Assembly (NCBI RefSeq): GCF_006345815.1
Contig: NZ_VCIG01000008.1
Coordinates: forward strand, 1-64,000
Reading direction: 5' to 3'
From: Ochrobactrum sp. CGA5
GTDB taxonomy: Bacteria > Pseudomonadota > Alphaproteobacteria > Rhizobiales > Rhizobiaceae
DNA: 64,000 bases
Part shown: positions 3,898-27,291 of the stretch, in pieces
How positions within the stretch are numbered: position 1 is the first letter of the stretch
How the letters are laid out: each line of letters opens with the position of its first letter
Translations under genes and position numbers: made by a program
Notes under the pieces: generated by a model
Databases searched by the model: none
What the model was told of the DNA's origin: nothing
The model's input: only the letters and a program-made list of their open reading frames with translations

Positions 3898-5517
3898 TCA
3901 GCCGATGGCGTTAGACTTGACGTTCCAAGGCATAAGGGCTTCGATTTCAGTTACAGGCCAGCCTTGAGCAATGCGGCTTAGTGTTTGGGATAGCCAGTCA
4001 AGCGGATCGACGCTGTTCATTTTGCATGTCTGGAGAAGCGTGGCCAGTGTAGCCCAGGTCCGTCCGCCGCCTTCGCTTCCGGCAAACAGGCTGTTTTTCC
4101 TCGTGATTGTCTGTGGTCTGATCGCACGCTCGACAATGTTGCTATCGATTTCGACCCGGCCATCGGTGAGGAAGCGCTCCAGGGCCTCGCGCCGGGTGAA
4201 CGCGTAGCGGATCGCCTCGGCGGTTTTGGACTTGCCCGAGACTTTACCCAGTTCCTTTTCCCACCGGTCGAAGAGGCGGGCGACAATGGTTTCAGACTGT
4301 TCCTGACGGAACGCGGCGCGGATGTCGGCATTCTTGCCGCGAACCTCATCCTCGATCTTCCACAATTTGGTCATGGCGGTGACCGTATCTGTTGCAGCCT
4401 GCGAGATCCCGCTGACGTGCAGATCGTAAAATTTGCGGCGCAGATGTGCCCAGCAGCCTGCGAGCTGTATCTGTTCATTGCGCCCAGCCTTGGCTTGCGC
4501 CTTGATCATGCTCGTATAGGCGCCATATCCGTCCACCTGCAGGATTCCGTTGAACCCGGCAAGATGCCGCGCCACGCATTCTGCGCCCCGACTGTCTTCA
4601 AAACGATAGGCCACCATTGGTGGACTGCTCCCACCATAGGGACGATCATCGCGTGCATAGGCCCAAAGCCATGCCTTGGTGGCTTTTCCCGAACCGGGAG
4701 CCAGAGTGGGCAAGGTCGTCTCATCGGCGAAGACCCTTTCACCTTCCTTGACCCGCTCCAGGATATAATCGGCGCATATCTGAAGCTCGAAGCCCAGATG
4801 CCCCATCCATTGCGCCATCAAACTCCGGCTGATCTCGACGCCATCGCGCAAATAGATTGCCTCCTGACGGTAAAGTGGAAGGCCATCGGCATACTTGGAA
4901 ACGGCTATATAGGCGAGCAGGCGCTCTGTCGGCAAACCGCTCTCGATAATATGTGCAGGCGCGAGCGCCTGAACCACACCATCATGGTTCCGGAATGCAT
5001 ATTTGGGGCGGCGTGTCACGACAACCCGGAACTTCGGGGGCACGACGTCCAGGCGTTCCGAGCGATCCTCGCCGATCAGGACCTTTTCCAGACCCTCGCA
5101 ACGAGCCGGAATCTCCGGTTCGATGACTTCCTCAATGCGTTCGAGATGAGCGGCAAAGCCCTTGCGCGGACGTGATGCCCGTTTCGGCTTGCCCCTGGCC
5201 GCATCGTCAAGTTCGCTCTGGATCGCCGAGAGACCGGTTTCCACTTCCTCGAAAGCAAACGATACCTGTTCATCGCTAACACCAAGGTGTAATCGTTCGG
5301 AGCGCCGGCCGTGCTGGGCGCGCTGCAAAACCTTCATGATGGATGTCAGGTTGGCAATCCGTTCGTTGGCGCTCTTCTCCACTGCCTCCAGCCGGGCAAT
5401 CTCAGCTTCAGCAGCCTTCAACCGGGCTTCCTTTTCAGCCTGCTCACGTGCCATTGCGAGCACCATAGCTTTCAGTGCGTCAACGTCATCCGGCAGATCG
5501 TGAAGCGGTAAATCCAT
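3898..5517 (-). CDS. tnpC: IS66-family transposase TnpC
   Basis: 539 aa, normal size. An N-terminal coiled coil (about 15-65, MAREQAEKEARLKAAEAEIARLEAVEKSANERI region) precedes the LZ_Tnp_IS66 segment, the zinc-finger-like region and the DDE_Tnp_IS66 core. Visible core motifs are FADETTLPTL, LQVDGYGAYT, AGCWAHLRRKFYDL and SNIVERAIRPQTITRKNSLFAGSEGGG. The C-terminal tail (NSVDPLDWLSQTL) is typical. It is transcribed after tnpB across a 75-bp gap. Confidence 0.95.
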   Translation of the reverse strand: MDLPLHDLPDDVDALKAMVLAMAREQAEKEARLKAAEAEIARLEAVEKSANERIANLTSIMKVLQRAQHGRRSERLHLGVSDEQVSFAFEEVETGLSAIQSELDDAARGKPKRASRPRKGFAAHLERIEEVIEPEIPARCEGLEKVLIGEDRSERLDVVPPKFRVVVTRRPKYAFRNHDGVVQALAPAHIIESGLPTERLLAYIAVSKYADGLPLYRQEAIYLRDGVEISRSLMAQWMGHLGFELQICADYILERVKEGERVFADETTLPTLAPGSGKATKAWLWAYARDDRPYGGSSPPMVAYRFEDSRGAECVARHLAGFNGILQVDGYGAYTSMIKAQAKAGRNEQIQLAGCWAHLRRKFYDLHVSGISQAATDTVTAMTKLWKIEDEVRGKNADIRAAFRQEQSETIVARLFDRWEKELGKVSGKSKTAEAIRYAFTRREALERFLTDGRVEIDSNIVERAIRPQTITRKNSLFAGSEGGGRTWATLATLLQTCKMNSVDPLDWLSQTLSRIAQGWPVTEIEALMPWNVKSNAIG

Positions 5518-17134: not shown

Positions 17135-19911
17135 GTGCGGCTTCGATAAAGGCTGGCGTGGGCGACGGCAGCTTTGTCGTTCGCGCTGAGAGCGTGAAGC
17201 TGTCTTATGGATTGACGGAAGCGTTGCGCGATATTTCGCTCAACGTGCCTGCCGGTTGCATGGTGGGGCTGATCGGTCCTGACGGTGTTGGCAAGTCGAG
17301 CCTTCTGTCGCTGATTGCTGGCGCACGCGTTATGCAGAAGGGCAGGATCGAAGTGCTGGGCGGCGATATTGCCGATAAGCGCCATCGCCAGTCGGCTTTT
17401 CCGCGAATTGCCTATATGCCGCAAGGGCTGGGAAAGAATCTCTATCCAACGCTCTCTGTCTTCGAGAACATTGAGTTCTTTGGACGGCTGTTTGGTCATG
17501 ACAAGCACGAACGTGAGCGCCGCATCGCCGATCTTCTGGCTCGAACGGGGATGTCGCCCTTTGCGGATCGCCCGGCAGGTAAGCTTTCGGGCGGCATGAA
17601 GCAGAAGACGAGTCTCTGCTGTTCGCTGATCCATGATCCCGATTTGTTGATCCTCGATGAGCCGACAACGGGTGTTGATCCCTTGTCGCGTCGTCAGTTC
17701 TGGGAGCTGATCGACGATATCCGCAAGGATCGTCCGGGGATGAGCGTCATTGTTGCGACGGCCTATATGGAAGAAGCGGAGCGCTTCGACTGGCTGGTTG
17801 CAATGAATGATGGCCAGATTCTTGCGACCGGCACGCCACAGGAACTGCTTGAGAAAACCAAAACGCCCAATCTTGACGCGGCCTTCATTGCACTTTTGCC
17901 GGAAGAACTTCGTCGGGGGCATAGTGAAGTTGTCATGCCGCCGCGCAATGCGCAGGCAGATAGCGGCATCGCTATCGAGGCAGAGCATGTCACGGTGCGG
18001 TTTGGCAATTTTACTGCCGTCGATAATGTGAGTTTCCGTATTCCGCGCGGCGAGATTTTCGGCTTTCTCGGATCGAATGGCTGCGGCAAGTCCACGACCA
18101 TGAAAGTGCTGACCGGGCTTTTGCCAGCGAGCGAAGGCACGGCGCGGCTGTTCGGACGTGAGGTCGATCCAAAGGATATCGATATACGTCGTCATGTCGG
18201 CTACATGTCACAGGCTTTCTCGCTCTATTCCGAGCTCACAGTTCATCAGAATCTTGAGCTTCATGCCAAGCTGTTTGGTATGGCAGAGGACGATACCAAA
18301 CGCAGAATCAAGGAACTGGCCCAAAGGTTTGATTTGGCTGGTGTTATGGATGATTTGCCGGACTCGATGCCGCTTGGCATTCGCCAGCGTTTGTCGCTGG
18401 CTGTGGCATTGATCCATTCACCGGACATTCTCATTCTCGATGAGCCGACATCGGGCGTCGATCCGGTTGCGCGCGATGCATTCTGGCAGATACTTGCCGA
18501 TCTTTCGCGCAAGGATAATGTGACGATCTTTGTCTCGACCCATTTCATGAATGAGGCCGAGCTTTGTGATCGCATTTCCCTTATGCATGCGGGTAAGGTG
18601 CTGATCAGCGACACGCCAAAAGCCATTACTGCAAGCCGCAATGCAGCAACGCTTGAAGATGCGTTTATTGCCTATCTCGAAGAAGCGATAGGTGAGACCA
18701 CGCCACAGAAAAGCAATCAGGAAAAGGTCGATCCGATACCGGAAAAGAAGCCGGAGAAGAGAATAACGCCTTCATCGAGCTGGTTGCCAAACCCACGACG
18801 GATGCTGGCTTTTTCACGTCGCGAAGCGCTGGAGCTCAAGCGCGATCCGATCCGTGCGACACTAGCTATTCTTGGTACTGTCATTCTTATGTTCGTCATC
18901 GGCTATGGTATTAATCTTGACGTCGAAGACCTGACATTTGCGGTTCTTGATCGCGATGACACTACGATCAGCCGGGATTATACACAGCAGCTTGCCGGTT
19001 CGCGCTATTTCACTGAAAAGCCCCCAATTACCGACTATGACGATCTCGACCGACGGATGCGTGAGGGTGAGATAAGTCTTGCGATTGAAATTCCACCGAA
19101 TTTTGGCAGCAATGTCGCGCATGGTCGCCCTGTTGAGGTGGCTGCCTGGATCGACGGCGCCATGCCGACGCGAGCGGAAACCGTGCGTGGTTATGTGCAG
19201 GGGATGCATGCCAATTGGTTGACGCAGAAGGCGCGTGAGCTTTATGGAGATGCTGCTACCGTCGGCATTTTCAATCTCGAAATCCGCTATCGGTATAATC
19301 CGGACGTGCAGAGCCTTGTGGCTATGGTTCCAGCAGTCATCCCGCTTTTGCTTTTGATGATCCCGGCCATGCTCGCTGTGCTGAGCGTGGTGCGCGAGAA
19401 GGAACTTGGCTCGATCATCAATTTCTACGTGACGCCGGTTACGAAATTCGAGTTTCTGCTTGGTAAGCAGTTGCCCTATATTGCGCTGGCCTTCCTCAAT
19501 TTTTTGATGCTGACAGCCTTTGCGGTTTTCATATTCCGCGTGCCATTTACCGGAAGCTTCCTGACCTATGCCACAGCAGCGCTTCTCTATGTCATCATCA
19601 CGACTGGCATGGGCTTAGTGATATCGACCTTTATCAACAGCCAGATTGCAGCGATTTTCGGCACAGCATTGCTGACGCTCATTCCTGCTGTGCAATATTC
19701 CGGCATTATTGATCCTGTCTCATCCTTGCAGGGAGCGGGTGCCTTTATCGGGAAAATTTATCCGACAACCTATTTCGTGACGATCTCGCGCGGGACTTTC
19801 TCTAAGGCGCTCGATTTTACCGATCTGGCGGGGTCGTTTCTGCCTCTGCTGATTGCAATCCCGGTGCTTGCCGTTCTCGGCATTGTTCTCCTCAAGAAAC
19901 AGGCGGGCTGA
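17131..19911 (+). CDS. Double-ATPase ABC transporter with fused ABC-2 permease (RbbA/YhiH-like)
   Basis: 926 aa. Two ATP-binding domains are followed by an ABC-2 membrane domain. Domain 1 has Walker [10 protein letters not shown], signature LSGGMK and Walker [14 protein letters not shown]. Domain 2 has Walker [10 protein letters not shown] and Walker [14 protein letters not shown], but its signature is degenerate (PLGIRQRLS in place of LSGGQ), as in other RbbA-like proteins. A charged linker (about 540-565) leads to the permease, whose first segment is [19 protein letters not shown], with a large periplasmic loop and five C-terminal segments. The start at 17131 overlaps the hlyD stop. Substrate unknown. 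Confidence 0.93.
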
Positions 19912-19912
19912 G

Positions 19913-21025
19913 ATGCGGATTTCCAATATACTCCAGCTTGGTATCAAGGAACTGCGCGGACTGGCGCGCGATCCGATGCTTCTGCTGCTCATTGTCTATG
20001 CCTTCACGCTCGCGATCTATACGGCGGCGAAGGCTATGCCTGAAAACCTCAACAATGCGGCTATCGCCATTGTCGATGAGGATCAGTCGCCGGTTTCGGG
20101 TCGGATTACGACCGCGTTTTATCCGCCATATTTCGTGCCGCCCAAACTCATCTCGTCTCATGAGATGGACAAGCGCATGGATGCAGGTCTTGATACATTC
20201 TCACTCGATATTCCGCCGAATTTCCAGCGTGATCTTCTCGCCGGGCGTTCGCCAACAATCCAGCTGAATGTTGATGCAACACGCATGAGCCAGGCCTTTA
20301 CGGGTGGTGGTTATGTGCAGTCGATTGTCTCGAGCGAAGTTTCTGAGTTTCTCAATCGCTATCGCGGGGACACGCAAACGCCGGTTGGCCTCAATTTGCG
20401 TGCAAGGTTCAATCAGGATCTGAACAAGGGGTGGTTCGGCGCGATCACCAATGTCATCTCGTCGGTGACGATGCTCTCAATTATTCTGACGGGTGCAGCC
20501 CTTATCCGTGAGCGCGAGCATGGCACCATCGAGCACCTTTTGGTGATGCCGGTAACGCCGCTTGAGATCATGATTTCCAAGGTCTGGTCTATGGGTATGG
20601 TGGTTCTGGTCGCTACGGCCTTTTCGCTGATCGTGGTGGTGCAGGGCGTTCTGGCGGTGCCGATCAACGGTTCACTGACACTGTTTCTGGCAGGAGCTGC
20701 ATTGCAGCTCTTTGCAACCACCAGCCTTGGCATTTTTCTCGCAACGATTGCCGGTTCGATGCCGCAGTTTGGCCTTCTGCTAATGCTGGTTTTGCTGCCG
20801 CTTCAGGTTCTCTCAGGCGGTATAACGCCGCGTGAGAGTATGCCTGATATTATCCAGAACATCATGCTGGCAGCACCCAACACACATTTCGTGATGCTCG
20901 CGCAATCGGTGTTGTTCCGGGGGGCAGGACTCAGCGTCGTGTGGCCGCAATTGCTGGCCATGATTGTAATCGGAAGCGTTCTTTTCTTCTTTGCGCTGCG
21001 TCGCTTCCGCGATTTCCTGAGATAG
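19913..21025 (+). CDS. ABC-2 type permease (YhhJ-like)
   Basis: 370 aa. One N-terminal segment (MLLLLIVYAFTLAIYTAAKA) precedes a periplasmic domain (about 45-170), followed by five membrane segments. LIREREHGTIEHLLVMPVTPLEIMISK is the conserved ABC-2 cytoplasmic loop. It starts one base after the stop of the fused ABC gene, so the two membrane halves are made in equal amounts. It belongs to the same operon as the HlyD adaptor. Confidence 0.93.
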   Translation: MRISNILQLGIKELRGLARDPMLLLLIVYAFTLAIYTAAKAMPENLNNAAIAIVDEDQSPVSGRITTAFYPPYFVPPKLISSHEMDKRMDAGLDTFSLDIPPNFQRDLLAGRSPTIQLNVDATRMSQAFTGGGYVQSIVSSEVSEFLNRYRGDTQTPVGLNLRARFNQDLNKGWFGAITNVISSVTMLSIILTGAALIREREHGTIEHLLVMPVTPLEIMISKVWSMGMVVLVATAFSLIVVVQGVLAVPINGSLTLFLAGAALQLFATTSLGIFLATIAGSMPQFGLLLMLVLLPLQVLSGGITPRESMPDIIQNIMLAAPNTHFVMLAQSVLFRGAGLSVVWPQLLAMIVIGSVLFFFALRRFRDFLR

Positions 21026-21067: not shown

Positions 21068-21241
21068 ATGGTTCGGATCATCGCTCAAGTCATTCTTTCG
21101 GCGGCAGGGGTTATTGTTGCATTCTTTGTGTCAAGAGATGAAGCAAATTATCCCGTCTATCAGATGGCCGTCTCACTCCTCATGCTAGTTATTGCGGCGT
21201 TGCTTGTTTGGTATGTGCCAAAAATTATGAAGCGAGACTGA
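21068..21241 (+). CDS. Small two-segment membrane protein
   Basis: 57 aa. AGGGG lies 11 bases before the ATG. It has two hydrophobic segments, IIAQVILSAAGVIVAFFV (4-21) and VSLLMLVIAALLVWYVP (35-51), with a charged loop (SRDEAN) and a basic end (KIMKRD). It follows the permease gene by 42 bp in the same direction and is probably the last gene of the exporter operon. I do not recognise the family. Its stop lies 5 bp before the IS427-type element. Confidence 0.6.
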   Translation: MVRIIAQVILSAAGVIVAFFVSRDEANYPVYQMAVSLLMLVIAALLVWYVPKIMKRD

Positions 21242-21307
21242 CGCTAGGGTCAGGACCCATTGATTTGTCACGCTGATTGTGATTCAGACGGGCTCGAAGG
21301 AGCCTGA

Positions 21308-22071
21308 ATGATGAGTGATCTCTTTTGGCTGACAGACGAGCAAATGGCACGTCTTCAGCCGTATTTCCCTAATAGCCACGGCCGTCCTCGCGTTGATGAT
21401 CGGCGCGTTCTGAGCGGCATCATCTTCGTCAATCGCAATGGGCTCAGATGGCGCGATGCGCCGAAGGAATATGGCCCCTCCAAGACACTTTATAATCGCT
21501 GGAAACGTTGGGGCGACAAGGGCATCTTCCTGCGGATGATGGAAGGTCTGGCAGTGCCTCAAGCTCCAGAGCGCAAGACGATCATGATCGATGCGACCTA
21601 TCTCAAGGCCCACCGCACGGCTTCCAGCCTGCGGGTAAAAAAGGGGGCGCGGAACGCCTGAATGGACGCACCAAAGGCGGCATGAACACCAAGCTTCATG
21701 CTGTAACGGATGCCAACGGTCGCCCGATCAGCTTCTTCATCACAGCAGGTCCGGTCAGCGATTATACCGGTGCAGCCGCCTTGCTTGACGAGCTTCCCGA
21801 GGCCCAATGGCTGCCGGCCAACCGTGGCTATGATGCCGACTGGTTTCGCGACGCCCTACAGGAAAAGGGTATCACTCCCTGCATCCCGGGCAGGAAATCC
21901 CGAAACAAGACCATTAAATACGACAAACGCCGCTATAAACGCCGCAACCGCATCGAGATCATGTTCGGCCGCATCAAGGACTGGAGGCGCGTCGCTACAC
22001 GCTATGACAGGTGCCCTATAGTCTTCCTCTCAGCCATCGCACTCGCCGCTACCGTAATCTTCTGGCTGTGA
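21308..22071 (+). CDS. IS427-type IS5 transposase, two frames
   Basis: The first frame (21308-21661) has the DUF4096 domain (WLTDEQMARLQPYFPNSHGRPRVDDRRVLSGI) and the first acidic residue in IMIDATYLKAHRTASSL. The second frame carries GGMNTKLHAVTDANGRPISFF, the second acidic motif ANRGYDADWFRDAL and RRYKRRNRIEIMFGRIKDWRRVATRYD. The frames meet at an A6-G5 slippery run (about 21638-21648), the usual site of programmed frameshifting in this group, so the gene is probably functional. The start may be either of two adjacent ATGs. Confidence 0.9.
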
Positions 22072-22183
22072 TCAATGAGATGCTGTAACGGGGCCTGCGC
22101 CACGCCACCGGCTGACGCATCTTGAAATTGCCCGCAGCAAGCTGTCGTTGTTCCCGTATCGGTCTCAATCGGAGGAATATGGG

Positions 22184-23215
22184 ATGAAGCTGTTCATAGG
22201 ACTGGATGTATCACTGGCGAAGACTGCGGTCTGTGTAATCAATGAGCACGGCAAGATCGTAAAAGAAGCGCAGGTTCTCAGTGATCCCCAATCGATCGTG
22301 GATTTTGCAAACACCCTGGAGGGATCGGTCGCTATCATAGGGCTTGAAGCCGGGCCGCTGTCCCAGTGGCTGCATCGCGGTTTGGCCGATGCCCGGCTGG
22401 AAGTTGTTCTGATGGAAACCCGACAGGTGAAGGGTGCTCTGAAGGCAATGCCGATCAAAACGGATCGGCGCGACGCGGAAGGGATTGCCCGACTGCTTCA
22501 TCTGGGCTGGTTCAGGCCCGTACATTGTAAATCCGTGTCGGCACAGGAAGTTCGTGCACTTCTGTCTGCCCGCAAGGCGATCCAACAAGGCATGATCGCG
22601 CTGGAACTGTCATTGCGCGGATTGCTGAGAAACTTCGGCCTGAAGGTCGGCGCCATCTCGCGCGGCCAGTTCGACGCCAGGATCAAACAGTTGGTGGAAG
22701 GCAATTCCATGTTGCAAGCAGCGTCCGGACCGATGTTACGCGCGCGCACCAGCCTTCGCCATGAACTGGCGGGACTCGAACGTCAGGTCCGTCTGCTTGC
22801 GAAGGACGACGCGGTGTGCCGGCTATTGATGACGATGCCTGGCATCGGGGCGGTCGTCGCCTTAACTTTCCGATCCGCGGTCGATGATCCCGCGCGGTTC
22901 TCATCGTCCAAGAAGGTGGGTCCATGGGTCGGCCTTACACCTTCGCGCAACCAGTCCGGTGAGCGCGACGTGATCGGCGGTATTACGCGAGCTGGCGACG
23001 CCAATCTGCGAAGAGCCTTGTGTCAGGCGGCTACCGTTATGATACATCGGGGTCGCTCGACATGGCTGAGAAGCTGGGCCGCACAAGTCGCCAAACGCCG
23101 AGGTGCAAAGCGTGCGATGGTGGCTTTGGCAAGGCGCATCGGTACCATCCTTCACCGGATGTGGACGGATGGCACCGAATTCTCTTCAGACCGATTGCTC
23201 ACCAAGTCGGCCTGA
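22184..23215 (+). CDS. IS110-family transposase (IS1111-type)
   Basis: 343 aa. The DEDD domain starts MKLFIGLDVSLAKTAVCVI and continues IIGLEAGPLSQWL and PIKTDRRDAEGIARLL. The C-terminal Transposase_20 domain reads LMTMPGIGAVVALTFRSAVDDP, WVGLTPSRNQSGERD and ITRAGDANLRRALCQAA, ending with a basic tail. GGAGGAATAT precedes ATG 22184, so that start is preferred to the upstream Met at 22148. No lesion is visible. Confidence 0.94.
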   Translation: MKLFIGLDVSLAKTAVCVINEHGKIVKEAQVLSDPQSIVDFANTLEGSVAIIGLEAGPLSQWLHRGLADARLEVVLMETRQVKGALKAMPIKTDRRDAEGIARLLHLGWFRPVHCKSVSAQEVRALLSARKAIQQGMIALELSLRGLLRNFGLKVGAISRGQFDARIKQLVEGNSMLQAASGPMLRARTSLRHELAGLERQVRLLAKDDAVCRLLMTMPGIGAVVALTFRSAVDDPARFSSSKKVGPWVGLTPSRNQSGERDVIGGITRAGDANLRRALCQAATVMIHRGRSTWLRSWAAQVAKRRGAKRAMVALARRIGTILHRMWTDGTEFSSDRLLTKSA

Positions 23216-23279
23216 GCCTTCACATCAGAACCATATCGTTGACGTCTGCCTGACCGCAGACCTTCGAGGTCCCAACCGG

Positions 23280-23430
23280 GACGCGGTTCCGATGATGCCG
23301 TGGTCAGGACTGTCGCCGGCCTCTGCCGAGCACGCCAATGAGATGGGCACATCGGAATTACCGCACTGGACCAGCATCATGTTGGCAGCTATCGCGCTGA
23401 CCACGGACCGAAGCATGAGCCCGGGCGGAC
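23280..23430 (+). ncRNA. Candidate bridge RNA region of the second IS1111-type element
   Basis: Downstream of the transposase four short segments occur in order. GGTCAGGACT (23302-23311) is the exact reverse complement of the right target plus core (23561-23570). CAATGAGATG (23336-23345) equals the left junction (22073-22082). CAGCATC (23372-23378) is the reverse complement of the element's left end (22080-22086 reads ATGCTGT; GATGCTG spans the core). ACCGAAG (23407-23413) equals its right end plus core (23556-23562). This is the layout expected for target-binding and donor-binding loops. RNA ends and strand are inferred. Confidence 0.65.
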
Positions 23431-23632
23431 CTCAAACGAAGGGCAAAGCAAGTCAGGCAGCGGCGAAAGGGGATCTGTCGGGATTATTTACCGCAATGGC
23501 ACCATGACGGCGCGGCTGCGGTCGTCACTTTTTGCTTGACTGGAACGGCCCCGTTACCGAAGTCCTGACCCTAGAATGTGGTGTTTTGAAACAGTGAGCC
23601 CTTAGCTTGAACCAGGGATAAAGCCACTAATG

Positions 23633-23646
23633 TTGATTACGCTCAA
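23633..23646. promoter_or_regulatory. FNR-like box upstream of ackA-xfp
   Basis: TTGATTACGCTCAA differs from TTGAT-N4-ATCAA at one fixed position. It ends 54 bp before the ackA start and 60 bp after the IS427 right end. It suggests low-oxygen control of the phosphoketolase pathway, in line with the arc operon box. Confidence 0.55.
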
Positions 23647-23699
23647 TGCATCGCATTTGCCGATCAGTCAAAGAGGTTATATTTCATAATGGAGGTTTT

Positions 23700-24872
23700 A
23701 TGGACAGCGTCTTGCTGACGTTCAATACAGGATCATCGACCGTCAAAATCGGCAGTTTTGAATATGATGGTTCGTCTTTGCAAAAATCGGCAAAAGCAGA
23801 CATCGATTTTGCCGCGACTCCGTTGAATTTTCATATGGAACGCGGCAAGGAACGGCTGGATATTGAACTGCAGACGCAAGAGTCAGCCGATATTGTTGCT
23901 GTTCTCAGCGAAGTTTTTGACAAGCTTTCAGCCTATATCGAACTTTCCCGTGTCAAAGCAATTGGCCATCGTGTCGTGCATGGCGGCGATATTTTTGCAG
24001 GTCCTGCATTAATTGATGATCGCTCAATTCAGGCCATTGACGATTTGTCGGCCTATGCGCCGCTCCACCAGCCTAAAAGTCTGGCGCTGATTAAAGCAAT
24101 CCGTCAGCTTTTCCCTGATATTCTGCAAACAGCTTCTTTTGACACAGCGTTCCATCGCACTATGCCGGATGTGATCCGCCGCCTTGCCATTCCACGGGCG
24201 ATGCACGATCAGGGCATCAAGCGTTATGGTTTTCATGGCCTTTCTTACCAATCCATCGCGCAACAGTTTAACGAGCTTCAGCCCGATTTGGGCCGTAAGA
24301 AACTTGTTGTTGCGCATCTTGGCAGCGGTGCCAGCATTTGTGCACTCGATCAGGGTAAAAGTGTTGATACCAGCATGAGCTTCTCCACGCTTGACGGTAT
24401 TCCGATGGCAACACGCTGCGGCAATATTGATGCCGGTGTGCTGCTGCATCTGTTGAGCCGGCAGAATATGAGCGCTGATGAGGTGACCGATATGCTTTAT
24501 CATCGCTCCGGCCTGCTCGGTGTTTCAGGCATCAGTGGTGATTGCCGAGACTTGCTGGCAAGTGATGCACCTGAGGCGAAGCAAGCGATTGATCTTTTCA
24601 CCACCCGTATTGCCGGTGAAATCACTCGACAGGCGACCAGCCTTGGCGGGGTGGATGCCGTTATTTTTACCGCCGGCATTGGTGAACACCAACCGGAAAT
24701 CCGTGCCCGCATTGCTCGCAAATTACAATGGCTCGGCCTTGAGCTGGACGATACGGCCAACAACAACAATGCTTTCCGCATCACCACGCCATCAAGCAAA
24801 ATCGCGGCCTTCATGCTCGCAACTGATGAAGAGCAAGTGATTGCTTCTGAAACTCTCACTGTTTTAAACTAA
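23700..24872 (+). CDS. ackA: Acetate kinase
   Basis: 390 aa. It makes ATP and acetate from acetyl phosphate in the cytoplasm. ASKHA-fold motifs are [13 protein letters not shown] at the N-terminus, [20 protein letters not shown] (catalytic Asp), [23 protein letters not shown] and [13 protein letters not shown]. The start at 23700 is chosen because GGAGG lies 5 bases before it; an in-frame ATG at 23646 overlaps the FNR-like box and lacks a ribosome site. xfp follows after 28 bp and supplies the acetyl phosphate. Confidence 0.96.
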
Positions 24873-24900
24873 TCCTCTTAATAGGTTAAGGAATTCCGGA

Positions 24901-27291
24901 ATGAATAATCAGACTGGCGCCCAGCCGCTTACTCCAGATCAGCTGAAACTGACCGACCGCTATTGGCGTGCAGCCAATTATCTCTCCGTCGGCCAGATTT
25001 ATCTGATGCAAAATCCGATGCTGCGCGAGCCTTTAAAGCCTGACCACGTCAAACCGCGTTTGCTGGGCCATTGGGGGACAACACCCGGCTTGAACTTCAT
25101 CTATGTGCATCTCAACCGCATTATTAAAGAACGCAACAAGGATGTGCTCTATGTTTGCGGTCCCGGGCATGGTGGCCCGGGCATGGTAGCGAACACCTAT
25201 CTGGAAGGCACTTATACTGAAACCTATCCTGACATTACCGAAGATGTTGAAGGTATGCAAAAGCTCTTCCGCCAGTTCTCGTTTCCGGGCGGTATTCCAA
25301 GCCATGTGGCACCCGAAACTCCGGGTTCCATCCATGAGGGCGGCGAGCTTGGCTATGCGCTTGTGCATGCTTACGGCGCAGCTTTTGACAATCCCGATCT
25401 CGTCGTTGCCTGTGTCGTAGGTGATGGTGAGGCCGAAACCGGCCCGTTGGCAGCAGCATGGCATTCCAACAAATTCCTCAACGCGAAGCGCGATGGCGCG
25501 GTGCTGCCGATTCTTCATCTGAACGGCTATAAAATCGCCAATCCGACCCTGCTCGCCCGTATGTCGGATGAAGACCTGCACAGTCTTTTCACCGGCTATG
25601 GCTATGAGCCATTTTTCGTTGAAGGCCATGAACCGGAAAAAATGCACCAGCTGATGGCAGCAACTTTTGACATGGCTTTTGACCGTATCAAAACCATTAA
25701 AGAGCAGGCCGATCTTAAATCGCCGGAGCGTCCGCGCTGGCCGATGATTATTCTGCGCAGCCCGAAAGGCTGGACAGGACCCAAAGTGGTTGATGGTAAA
25801 ATGGTGGAGAACCATTGGCGTTCCCATCAGGTGCCGGTTGCCAATTGCCGTGCTGATGATGCACACCGCAAAATCCTCGAAGACTGGATGCGCAGCTATA
25901 AGCCGGAAGACCTGTTTGACGAAAGCGGTAAGCTCAAACCGGAATTACGCGCAATAGCACCGGATGGTGAAAAGCGCATGAGCGCCATTCCGCATTCCAA
26001 TGGTGGCTTGCTGCGTAAGGAACTGAACACACCGGATTTCCGAAAATATGCGGTCAATGTCACCGAACCGGGCGCGGTTGAAGAACAGACCACCAAAATC
26101 CTCGGCGACTATCTGCGCGATGTCATCCGCCTCAATGACGAAGAGAAAAACTTCCGCGTCTTCGGGCCTGATGAAACCGCCTCCAATCGTCTGGGCAGTG
26201 TTTTTGAAGCAACCGACCGTGTCTGGATGGCTGAAACTTTAGGCAGTGACGACCATCTGGCGGCTGATGGCCGCGTGATGGAAGTGCTGAGTGAACATCT
26301 GTGTCAAGGTTGGCTGGAAGGTTATTTGCTGACCGGACGCCATGGCTTCTTCTCCTGCTATGAAGCTTTTATCCATATTGTGGATTCCATGTTCAACCAA
26401 CATGCTAAATGGTTGCAAGTGGCACGCGAACTGCCATGGCGCAAGCCGGTTGCATCGCTTAACTATCTGCTGACGTCTCATGTCTGGCGTCAAGATCACA
26501 ACGGCTTCTCCCATCAGGATCCGGGCTTTGTCGATCTGGTTGCCAATAAGAGCGCTGATATTGTCCGTGTTTATTTCCCGCCGGATGCCAATACGCTGCT
26601 TTGGGTGGGTGAGCACTGCCTCAAAACATGGAACCGCGTGAACGTGATTGTGGCTGGCAAGCAGCCATCACCACAATGGCTCACCATGGATGAGGCAGAA
26701 AAACATTGTGAAGCCGGTCTTGGCAAATGGGACTGGGCAGGCAGCGAAGATGGCATGGAACCAGATCTGGTGATGGCTTGTGCTGGTGATGTGCCGACCA
26801 TGGAAACATTGGCCGCCACCGCAATGCTGCGTGAAGCATTGCCACATTTGCGCATTCGTGTTGTCAATATTGTCGACCTGATGGCGCTGCAATCACCGCA
26901 GCATCACCCGCATGGTATTGCCGATAGTGAATTTGATGCGCTTTTCACCACCGACCGTCCGGTGATTTTCGCCTATCACGGCTATCCATATCTCATTCAC
27001 CGTCTGGTTTATAAGCGCGCCAATCATCCGAACTTCCATGTGCGTGGCTTTATCGAAAAAGGCACAACCACAACGCCGTTTGATATGGCTGTCATGAATG
27101 AACTGGATCGTTATCATCTGGCAATTGAAGCACTCCACCGCCTGCCTTTGGCCGCTGATATTGCCGAGCCTCTGATCACTTCGCTCAATGAGAAGCTGCA
27201 AAAGCATCATGACTATGTCCGTGAACATGGCGAAGACATGCCGGAAGTACACGATTGGAAATGGCCGCATAGCCGCGTATCCAAGGCCTGA
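24901..27291 (+). CDS. xfp: Xylulose-5-P/fructose-6-P phosphoketolase
   Basis: 796 aa, usual length for XFP. This thiamine-diphosphate enzyme cleaves xylulose-5-P (or fructose-6-P) with phosphate to acetyl phosphate and an aldose phosphate. Visible motifs are [42 protein letters not shown], the ThDP motif [19 protein letters not shown] and its LNGYKIANP end. Further along are [19 protein letters not shown] and [23 protein letters not shown] (as [11 protein letters not shown]). With ackA it forms a short route giving ATP from pentose phosphate. A hairpin follows at 27304. Confidence 0.97.

Follow-up and report, generated by a model that had tools for sequence, protein, structure and literature searches.

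IS4321 and IS5075, as Partridge and Hall are said to have described in 2003, sit in the terminal repeats of Tn21-family transposons, and in Pseudomonas putida IS1383 reportedly occupies the inverted repeats of IS1384, an observation credited to Muller et al. in 2001. The IS4321/IS5075 pair resembles the locus analyzed here in that an IS1111-family element lies in another transposon's terminal repeat, but the host there is Tn21 rather than IS427, and the IS4321/IS5075 transposases, among the plasmid copies listed, are ~24% identical to ours. IS1383, likened to our element by description alone, is the closest precedent: it is of the IS110 type and inserts specifically into an IS5-family element, at the inverted repeats. 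The classification of IS1384 in the IS5 family is taken from the available part of PMC5141477. ISPye46 of Paracoccus yeei, a 1361-bp IS110-family element with TG repeats, was found with IS5- and IS256-family elements, and the accessible portion of PMC11578231 raises preferential insertion into such elements.

There are also models for the mechanism. In the part of PMC11187229 available, ISEc11, ISKpn4, ISPst6, and ISPa11 combine a DEDD transposase, subterminal repeats, 7- and 3-bp extensions, a 3′ noncoding RNA in which the top-strand complement precedes the bottom-strand match, and a fixed insertion site and orientation, all of which have counterparts here; their targets differ (a short linear site, attC, REP), and our RNA is predicted from sequence. 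IS621, in the excerpted PMC11208160, likewise has a bridge RNA in which target guides and donor guides each come in a pair around a 2-bp core, and its CT core reads AG on the other strand, but that RNA lies 5′ of the gene and not 3′ as here, and transposase similarity is confined to residues 191 to 337. Both the mechanism and the habit of inserting into transposon ends are thus already known, and a clade dedicated to IS427 ends adds a case; a literature search lacking most subscription papers found no published account of this clade at these ends.

The window, a stretch of 64,000 nucleotides (positions 1 to 64,000, forward strand, of Ochrobactrum sp. CGA5 contig NZ_VCIG01000008.1, assembly GCF_006345815.1), contains one IS1111-family element nested in one IS427-type element; DNA searches of the 4.6-Mb genome found no second IS1111-family copy and, for an IS427-type element elsewhere, a 46-bp match only. 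The parts of the two elements are all given on the + strand. The left part of the host, an IS427-type member of the IS5 family, extends from the CTAG of its left tip to the insertion point as placed by comparison with empty sites (21244 to 22079), and its transposase (21308 to 22071) is encoded by two overlapping frames, 21308 to 21661 and 21508 to 22071, matching DUF4096, DDE_Tnp_1, and NF033580. The right tip severed by the insertion, AGTCCTGACCCTAG, lies at 23561 to 23574, its first 2 bases being the right copy of the core. The host has imperfect terminal repeats and CTAG at both tips, which would fit duplication of TA as a 2-bp direct repeat; overlapping frames, imperfect terminal repeats, and a 2-bp direct repeat are features of the IS427 group in the available part of PMC3281130, and we use the group name on the basis of frames, repeats, and domain models rather than an ISfinder search.

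By the convention of PMC11187229 (available in part), the inserted element comprises 1483 bp including the left core copy (22078 to 23560). An earlier note on this DNA had described an IS110-family element inside a split IS427-type right repeat with an AG core on both sides, and this arrangement is present, the left AG occupying 22078 to 22079. Perfect 11-bp subterminal inverted repeats, GTAACGGGGCC (22085 to 22095) and GGCCCCGTTAC (23547 to 23557), are set in from the ends by extensions of 7 bp on the left (AGATGCT) and 3 bp on the right (CGA). The transposase gene (22184 to 23215) encodes 343 residues from its ATG, with DEDD_Tnp_IS110 and Transposase_20 domains over the Pfam cut-offs and a score above the cut-off of the NCBIfam model of IS110 RNA-guided transposases; its similarity to the ISCro4 and IS621 chains covers residues 191 to 337 only. 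A GL-P----S/TG motif, GLTPSRNQSG at residue 250 of the window protein, is found in 60 of 62 close and all 19 sister proteins of the sets defined below. This anatomy is read from the DNA itself, as are, in what follows, the agreement of guides with targets, the specialization of the clade, the empty sites, and the use of the right end only.

A TTGAC at 23536 to 23540 lies 27 nt from the core's end, a spacing kept at 54/56 close and 14/15 sister right ends. It could be the −35 box of a promoter formed at a circle junction, and its placement is in line with the circle-junction promoter of ISEc11. No convincing −10 partner was found near the right end, and a sigma-70 scan of 21100 to 23700, with a model that says little for this host, returned no promoter-like site on the + strand.

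The 3′ noncoding region (23216 to 23560) holds four segments that the earlier note had singled out as guides, and all four matches are exact. Target guide 1 (23302 to 23311) is the reverse complement of core plus right target (23561 to 23570); target guide 2 (23336 to 23345) is identical to the left target, core, and first element bases (22073 to 22082). The donor guide for the left end (23372 to 23378) is the reverse complement of GATGCTG at 22079 to 22085, and that for the right end (23407 to 23413) equals the right end plus core, ACCGAAG, at 23556 to 23562. The proposed logic, in which the first segment of each pair is complementary to the right side of a junction and the second identical to its left side, also holds exactly, and guide 1, the top-strand complement, precedes guide 2, the bottom-strand match. 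Among 20,000 first-order Markov copies of the noncoding region, 6, 18, 795, and 401 contained the first to fourth word, respectively, so the two 10-mers are far beyond chance; each 7-mer donor guide is weak by itself (4% and 2%) and needs the support of relatives.

Conservation and folding set these segments in a conserved, putative bridge/seekRNA region at 23262 to 23426, from which the ends of the RNA itself may differ. In the close set, conservation relative to the window is high at ~23240 to 23440 and over the last 30 bases and low elsewhere; in the sister set it falls to 0.27 in the block 23300 to 23309, which carries target guide 1, versus 0.89 in the preceding block. A consensus fold of 60 sequences leaves guide 1 wholly unpaired and 8 of the 10 bases of guide 2 unpaired, with an outer helix and an inner hairpin around the guides and a two-pair helix closing the edge of guide 2. 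The donor guides flank a second hairpin, with 5/7 (left end) and 6/7 (right end) bases open. Covariation in the 3′ regions of relatives, suggested earlier as a check, is seen: 97.1% of 2037 cells are paired, and 16 of 34 pairs have changed on both sides, values reached by 0 of 500 shuffles, while sliding the partners by 1 to 3 columns leaves 29 to 42% paired; these statistics are favored by the derivation of the structure from the same alignment. The window's own minimum-energy fold places guides 1 and 2 on two sides of one internal loop with three guide-guide pairs. The expectation that all four segments would lie in two internal loops is thus borne out for the target guides, which are mostly unpaired, but only in part for the donor guides: in this fold the right-end guide is open at 6/7 bases and the left-end guide at 3/7, the other 4 being paired. 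An Rfam search returned no match at E up to 1, and single-sequence fold stability is unremarkable (z of −1.63 and −1.43).

Relatives were collected by a scan of genome contigs, the best 80 of the 234 found being kept, which makes 81 elements with the window. We separated 62 close elements (window included) from 19 sister elements at 73% protein identity to the window, a cut of our own choosing; the two sets fall on opposite sides of a 100/100 branch in the tree, which, the cut having been made by identity, speaks only for its naturalness. Flanks were scored independently of the tree. In 42/62 close versus 0/19 sister elements, a same-strand IS427-type orfB stops 0 to 20 bp short of the left end; the other close left flanks carry a C-terminal IS427 remnant (5), neither (12), or an unreadable end (3). 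The right flank is an IS427 tip in 49/55 readable close elements, the other 6 having another flank, versus 0/15 sister elements. The left end could be read in 59 close elements, and in none of them does an IS427 open reading frame lie on the opposite strand within 150 bp, as would be expected of a left-end insertion. The proposal that one IS is specialized on IS427 ends therefore stands, narrowed to the right (3′) end, the only one seen in use. That relatives sit at the same base of these ends is mostly true; three close elements (L017, L022, and L031), with partial guide matches and no IS427 sequence on either side, are possible insertions elsewhere.

The named hosts of the close set are Rhizobiaceae, Phyllobacteriaceae, Aurantimonadaceae, Brucellaceae, Paracoccaceae, Roseobacteraceae, and, once, Acetobacteraceae; one of the nearest relatives of the window's element comes from Brucellaceae, L004 is from Oryzicola mucosus, and L033 is from Paracoccus aminovorans. 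In an order-wide sample of 397 genomes, a search at E 1e-100 found 6 with matches, namely the window, one truncated copy at 77%, and others at 50 to 51%, and so supplied no further replicate of the close clade. Partial second 3′ copies (noncoding region and right end) stand directly behind the full element in L006 (5384 to 5762) and L019 (5405 to 5735); they may have arisen when an older copy was inserted into or recombined with.

The sister elements sit mostly at unrelated sites, and relatives with other guides do occupy other sites, mostly ones matching those guides. We quantified the agreement at guide places taken from a single alignment of the 3′ regions, against 2000 permuted pairings with identical guide-flank rows collapsed. 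Both ends were read in 68 of 81 elements; dropping L009 for its short right flank left 53 close and 14 sister elements (left end of L062 set by hand), collapsing for the four guides to 37, 20, 17, and 10 close and 13, 13, 12, and 11 sister rows. In the sister set the right target matches its guide at 74/91 positions (permuted mean 51.9, maximum 65) and the left target at 49/65 (38.3 and 48); the right end matches its donor guide at 53/55 (mean 48.0; 2/2000 permutations as high) and the left end at 59/72 (mean 55.9; 59/2000). In the close set, where relatedness makes the control soft, the right target scores 220/259 (mean 201.2, maximum 216) and the left target 76/100 (mean 67.5; 3/2000 as high); its donor guides give no covariation signal, the left-end guide scoring 89/102 with 1405/2000 permutations as high and the right-end guide 47/50 in every permutation. 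Individual elements illustrate the donor side: the left end GATGTCG of L077 faces the guide CGACATC, and the right ends ATGGA (L073), ACGAA (L074), and ACAGA (L071) go with the guides GGATGGAAG, GAACGAAAG, and GGACAGAAG. The right-end donor guide is mismatched in L032, L053, L057, L059, L060, and L062.

A further scan, of the whole noncoding region, presupposed no guide place. Queried with the core plus 8 right-target bases, it scored best at the guide place in 53/55 close and 13/15 sister elements (7 sole best and 6 ties; L068 and L071 miss), versus 2 and 0 with flanks taken 20 bases further out. On the left side the counts were 52/53 and 11/13, with 5 and 0 in the control, a weaker test since the query contains the constant AGATG. 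Guide-target mismatches in 48 distinct close rows, L009 and L062 being left out, were not enriched for wobble (23/103 wobble-compatible versus 17 opposite transitions). In L071, the sequence to the right of the right end near 5430 (AGCAGGATCCCGATGTGGGACAAC) equals the element's own noncoding region just 3′ of the donor guide, as if right-end and guide DNA had recombined or the end had been misassigned. The flanks of L063, L068, and L078 have in common a word like GGCGACAGGG or GCGACAGGG, so part of the sister clade may favor some repeated sequence too.

Unoccupied hosts indicate what the guides would recognize. In a congener (L104), the right end of a 98% identical IS427-type element is uninterrupted and reads ATCAATGAGTCCTGACCCTAG. 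The core is AG on the right and GG on the left in all unoccupied full-length IS427 copies read, 9/9 in the genus and 2/2 on Agrobacterium plasmids, and in these copies the two ends are mostly alike apart from the core. At 30 usable close loci, counted by eye after exclusion of L004 and L031 as false left-repeat matches, the left-repeat core is GG in 27, something else in 3 (L008, L049, and L054), and AG in none. A left core that is usually GG would account for the exclusive use of the right end among the elements observed, and the AG/GG difference suggests that the core excludes the left end. The exact programmed 13-mer, CAATGAGTCCTGA, is absent from the window's own genome, where exact CAATGGGTCCTGA occurs only at the left end of the same IS427. 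Thirty-five congeneric genomes contain the 13-mer 28 times versus once for the reversed pattern, and at least 24 of the 28 lie directly behind an IS427-type transposase: 13 abut IS427 matches by coordinates, and 11 of the other 15 follow orfB at 5 to 10 bp. Of the last four, one runs into a contig edge yet still shows an IS427-like tail, two are IS427-like tips with no transposase match nearby in the sequence, and one is an unlike sequence. At two sites in the genus, L140 and L141, the IS427-like tip has the core AG and the stretch retrieved gave no transposase match; these might be small nonautonomous derivatives of IS427 and could serve the element as further targets. A tip search of the Paracoccus aminovorans genome gave 4 places and yields no estimate of occupancy.

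We consider it very probable that this is an IS1111-family IS with a 3′ bridge/seekRNA whose guides are programmed for the right ends of IS427-type elements, and that its clade is specialized there. The 3′ noncoding region would encode the RNA, one region of which would carry two guides reading both strands of the target CAATG-AG-TCCTGACC and a second the guides reading the element's own two ends; the RNA-loaded DEDD transposase would then use the 2-bp core AG to join target and circularized element. The chemistry behind this joining is that described for the family in the available parts of PMC11187229 and PMC11208160, by analogy with which we infer RNA production, a circular intermediate, and cleavage at the core. 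Because the programmed target is predicted to be the right-hand end of an IS427-type IS, just past the transposase stop codon, the clade would be specialized to land in another IS, whose right terminal repeat it splits.

Could both ISs instead travel as a composite, an old insertion having been spread in a few events by IS427 transposition with no targeting at all? A joint move is conceivable in the window, where CTAG still stands at either end of the pair and neither outer IS427 tip is damaged, and several P. aminovorans copies have one left flank in common. We nevertheless judge this improbable: the IS427 transposases adjoining close relatives range from 100% down to ~48% identity to the window's, empty IS427 copies are present in congeners, sister-clade guides match unrelated targets, and the part of the host's right repeat outside the insert is only 12 bp long. 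The site might also be picked by the transposase or by a fold of the IS427 end, the RNA words being by-products; the ends of IS427 form inverted repeats, and foldable sites such as attC and REP are used by some IS1111 elements (PMC11187229, available in part). Closely related transposases with other guide words at other, matching sites argue against such protein or fold choice, as does the variation of guide columns while adjacent RNA columns stay constant, and we hold it very unlikely. That the guide matches arose by chance or as small duplications has a negligible probability in our view; although the 7-mers are not rare singly, no Markov copy in 20,000 held all four words jointly, and relatives with different targets show the matches at one and the same alignment position.

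Returning to an RNA-guided element programmed for right IS427 ends, the 12 bp of terminal repeat left outside the insert mean that the host IS is probably disabled. The element lies on the same strand, 2 to 13 bp behind the host transposase gene, a position that could allow read-through expression; if the core tells right from left end, every insertion would fall there. We posit only tentatively, and with more doubt than belief, that the element is an RNA-guided parasite of ISs in which the core, not the guides, separates the host's ends, same-strand landing brings read-through, the split of the right repeat disables the host, and the guides follow the hosts; guide changes within the clade would then track the end types of different IS427 elements. 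Since host right and left ends differ at the core and often hardly elsewhere, they offer a simple test of its role. A one-target clade beside a sister clade whose members each have their own site, with guides readable on both sides, provides natural data on RNA-guided target choice, and the transposon-end habit is here seen with a transposase only distantly related to those of IS4321/IS5075.

On one side of the nested pair is an ABC-2 type transporter gene (19853 to 21025) and on the other a phosphoketolase region (23646 to 27291), and the open reading frame separating the pair from the phosphoketolase gene is presumably an acetate kinase. An IS5 and IS110 pair of this kind also occurs on a Shinella plasmid (L086, 377 to 3892), flanked by one gene annotated with a phosphoethanolamine transferase domain and another annotated as a sulfatase-like hydrolase/transferase.
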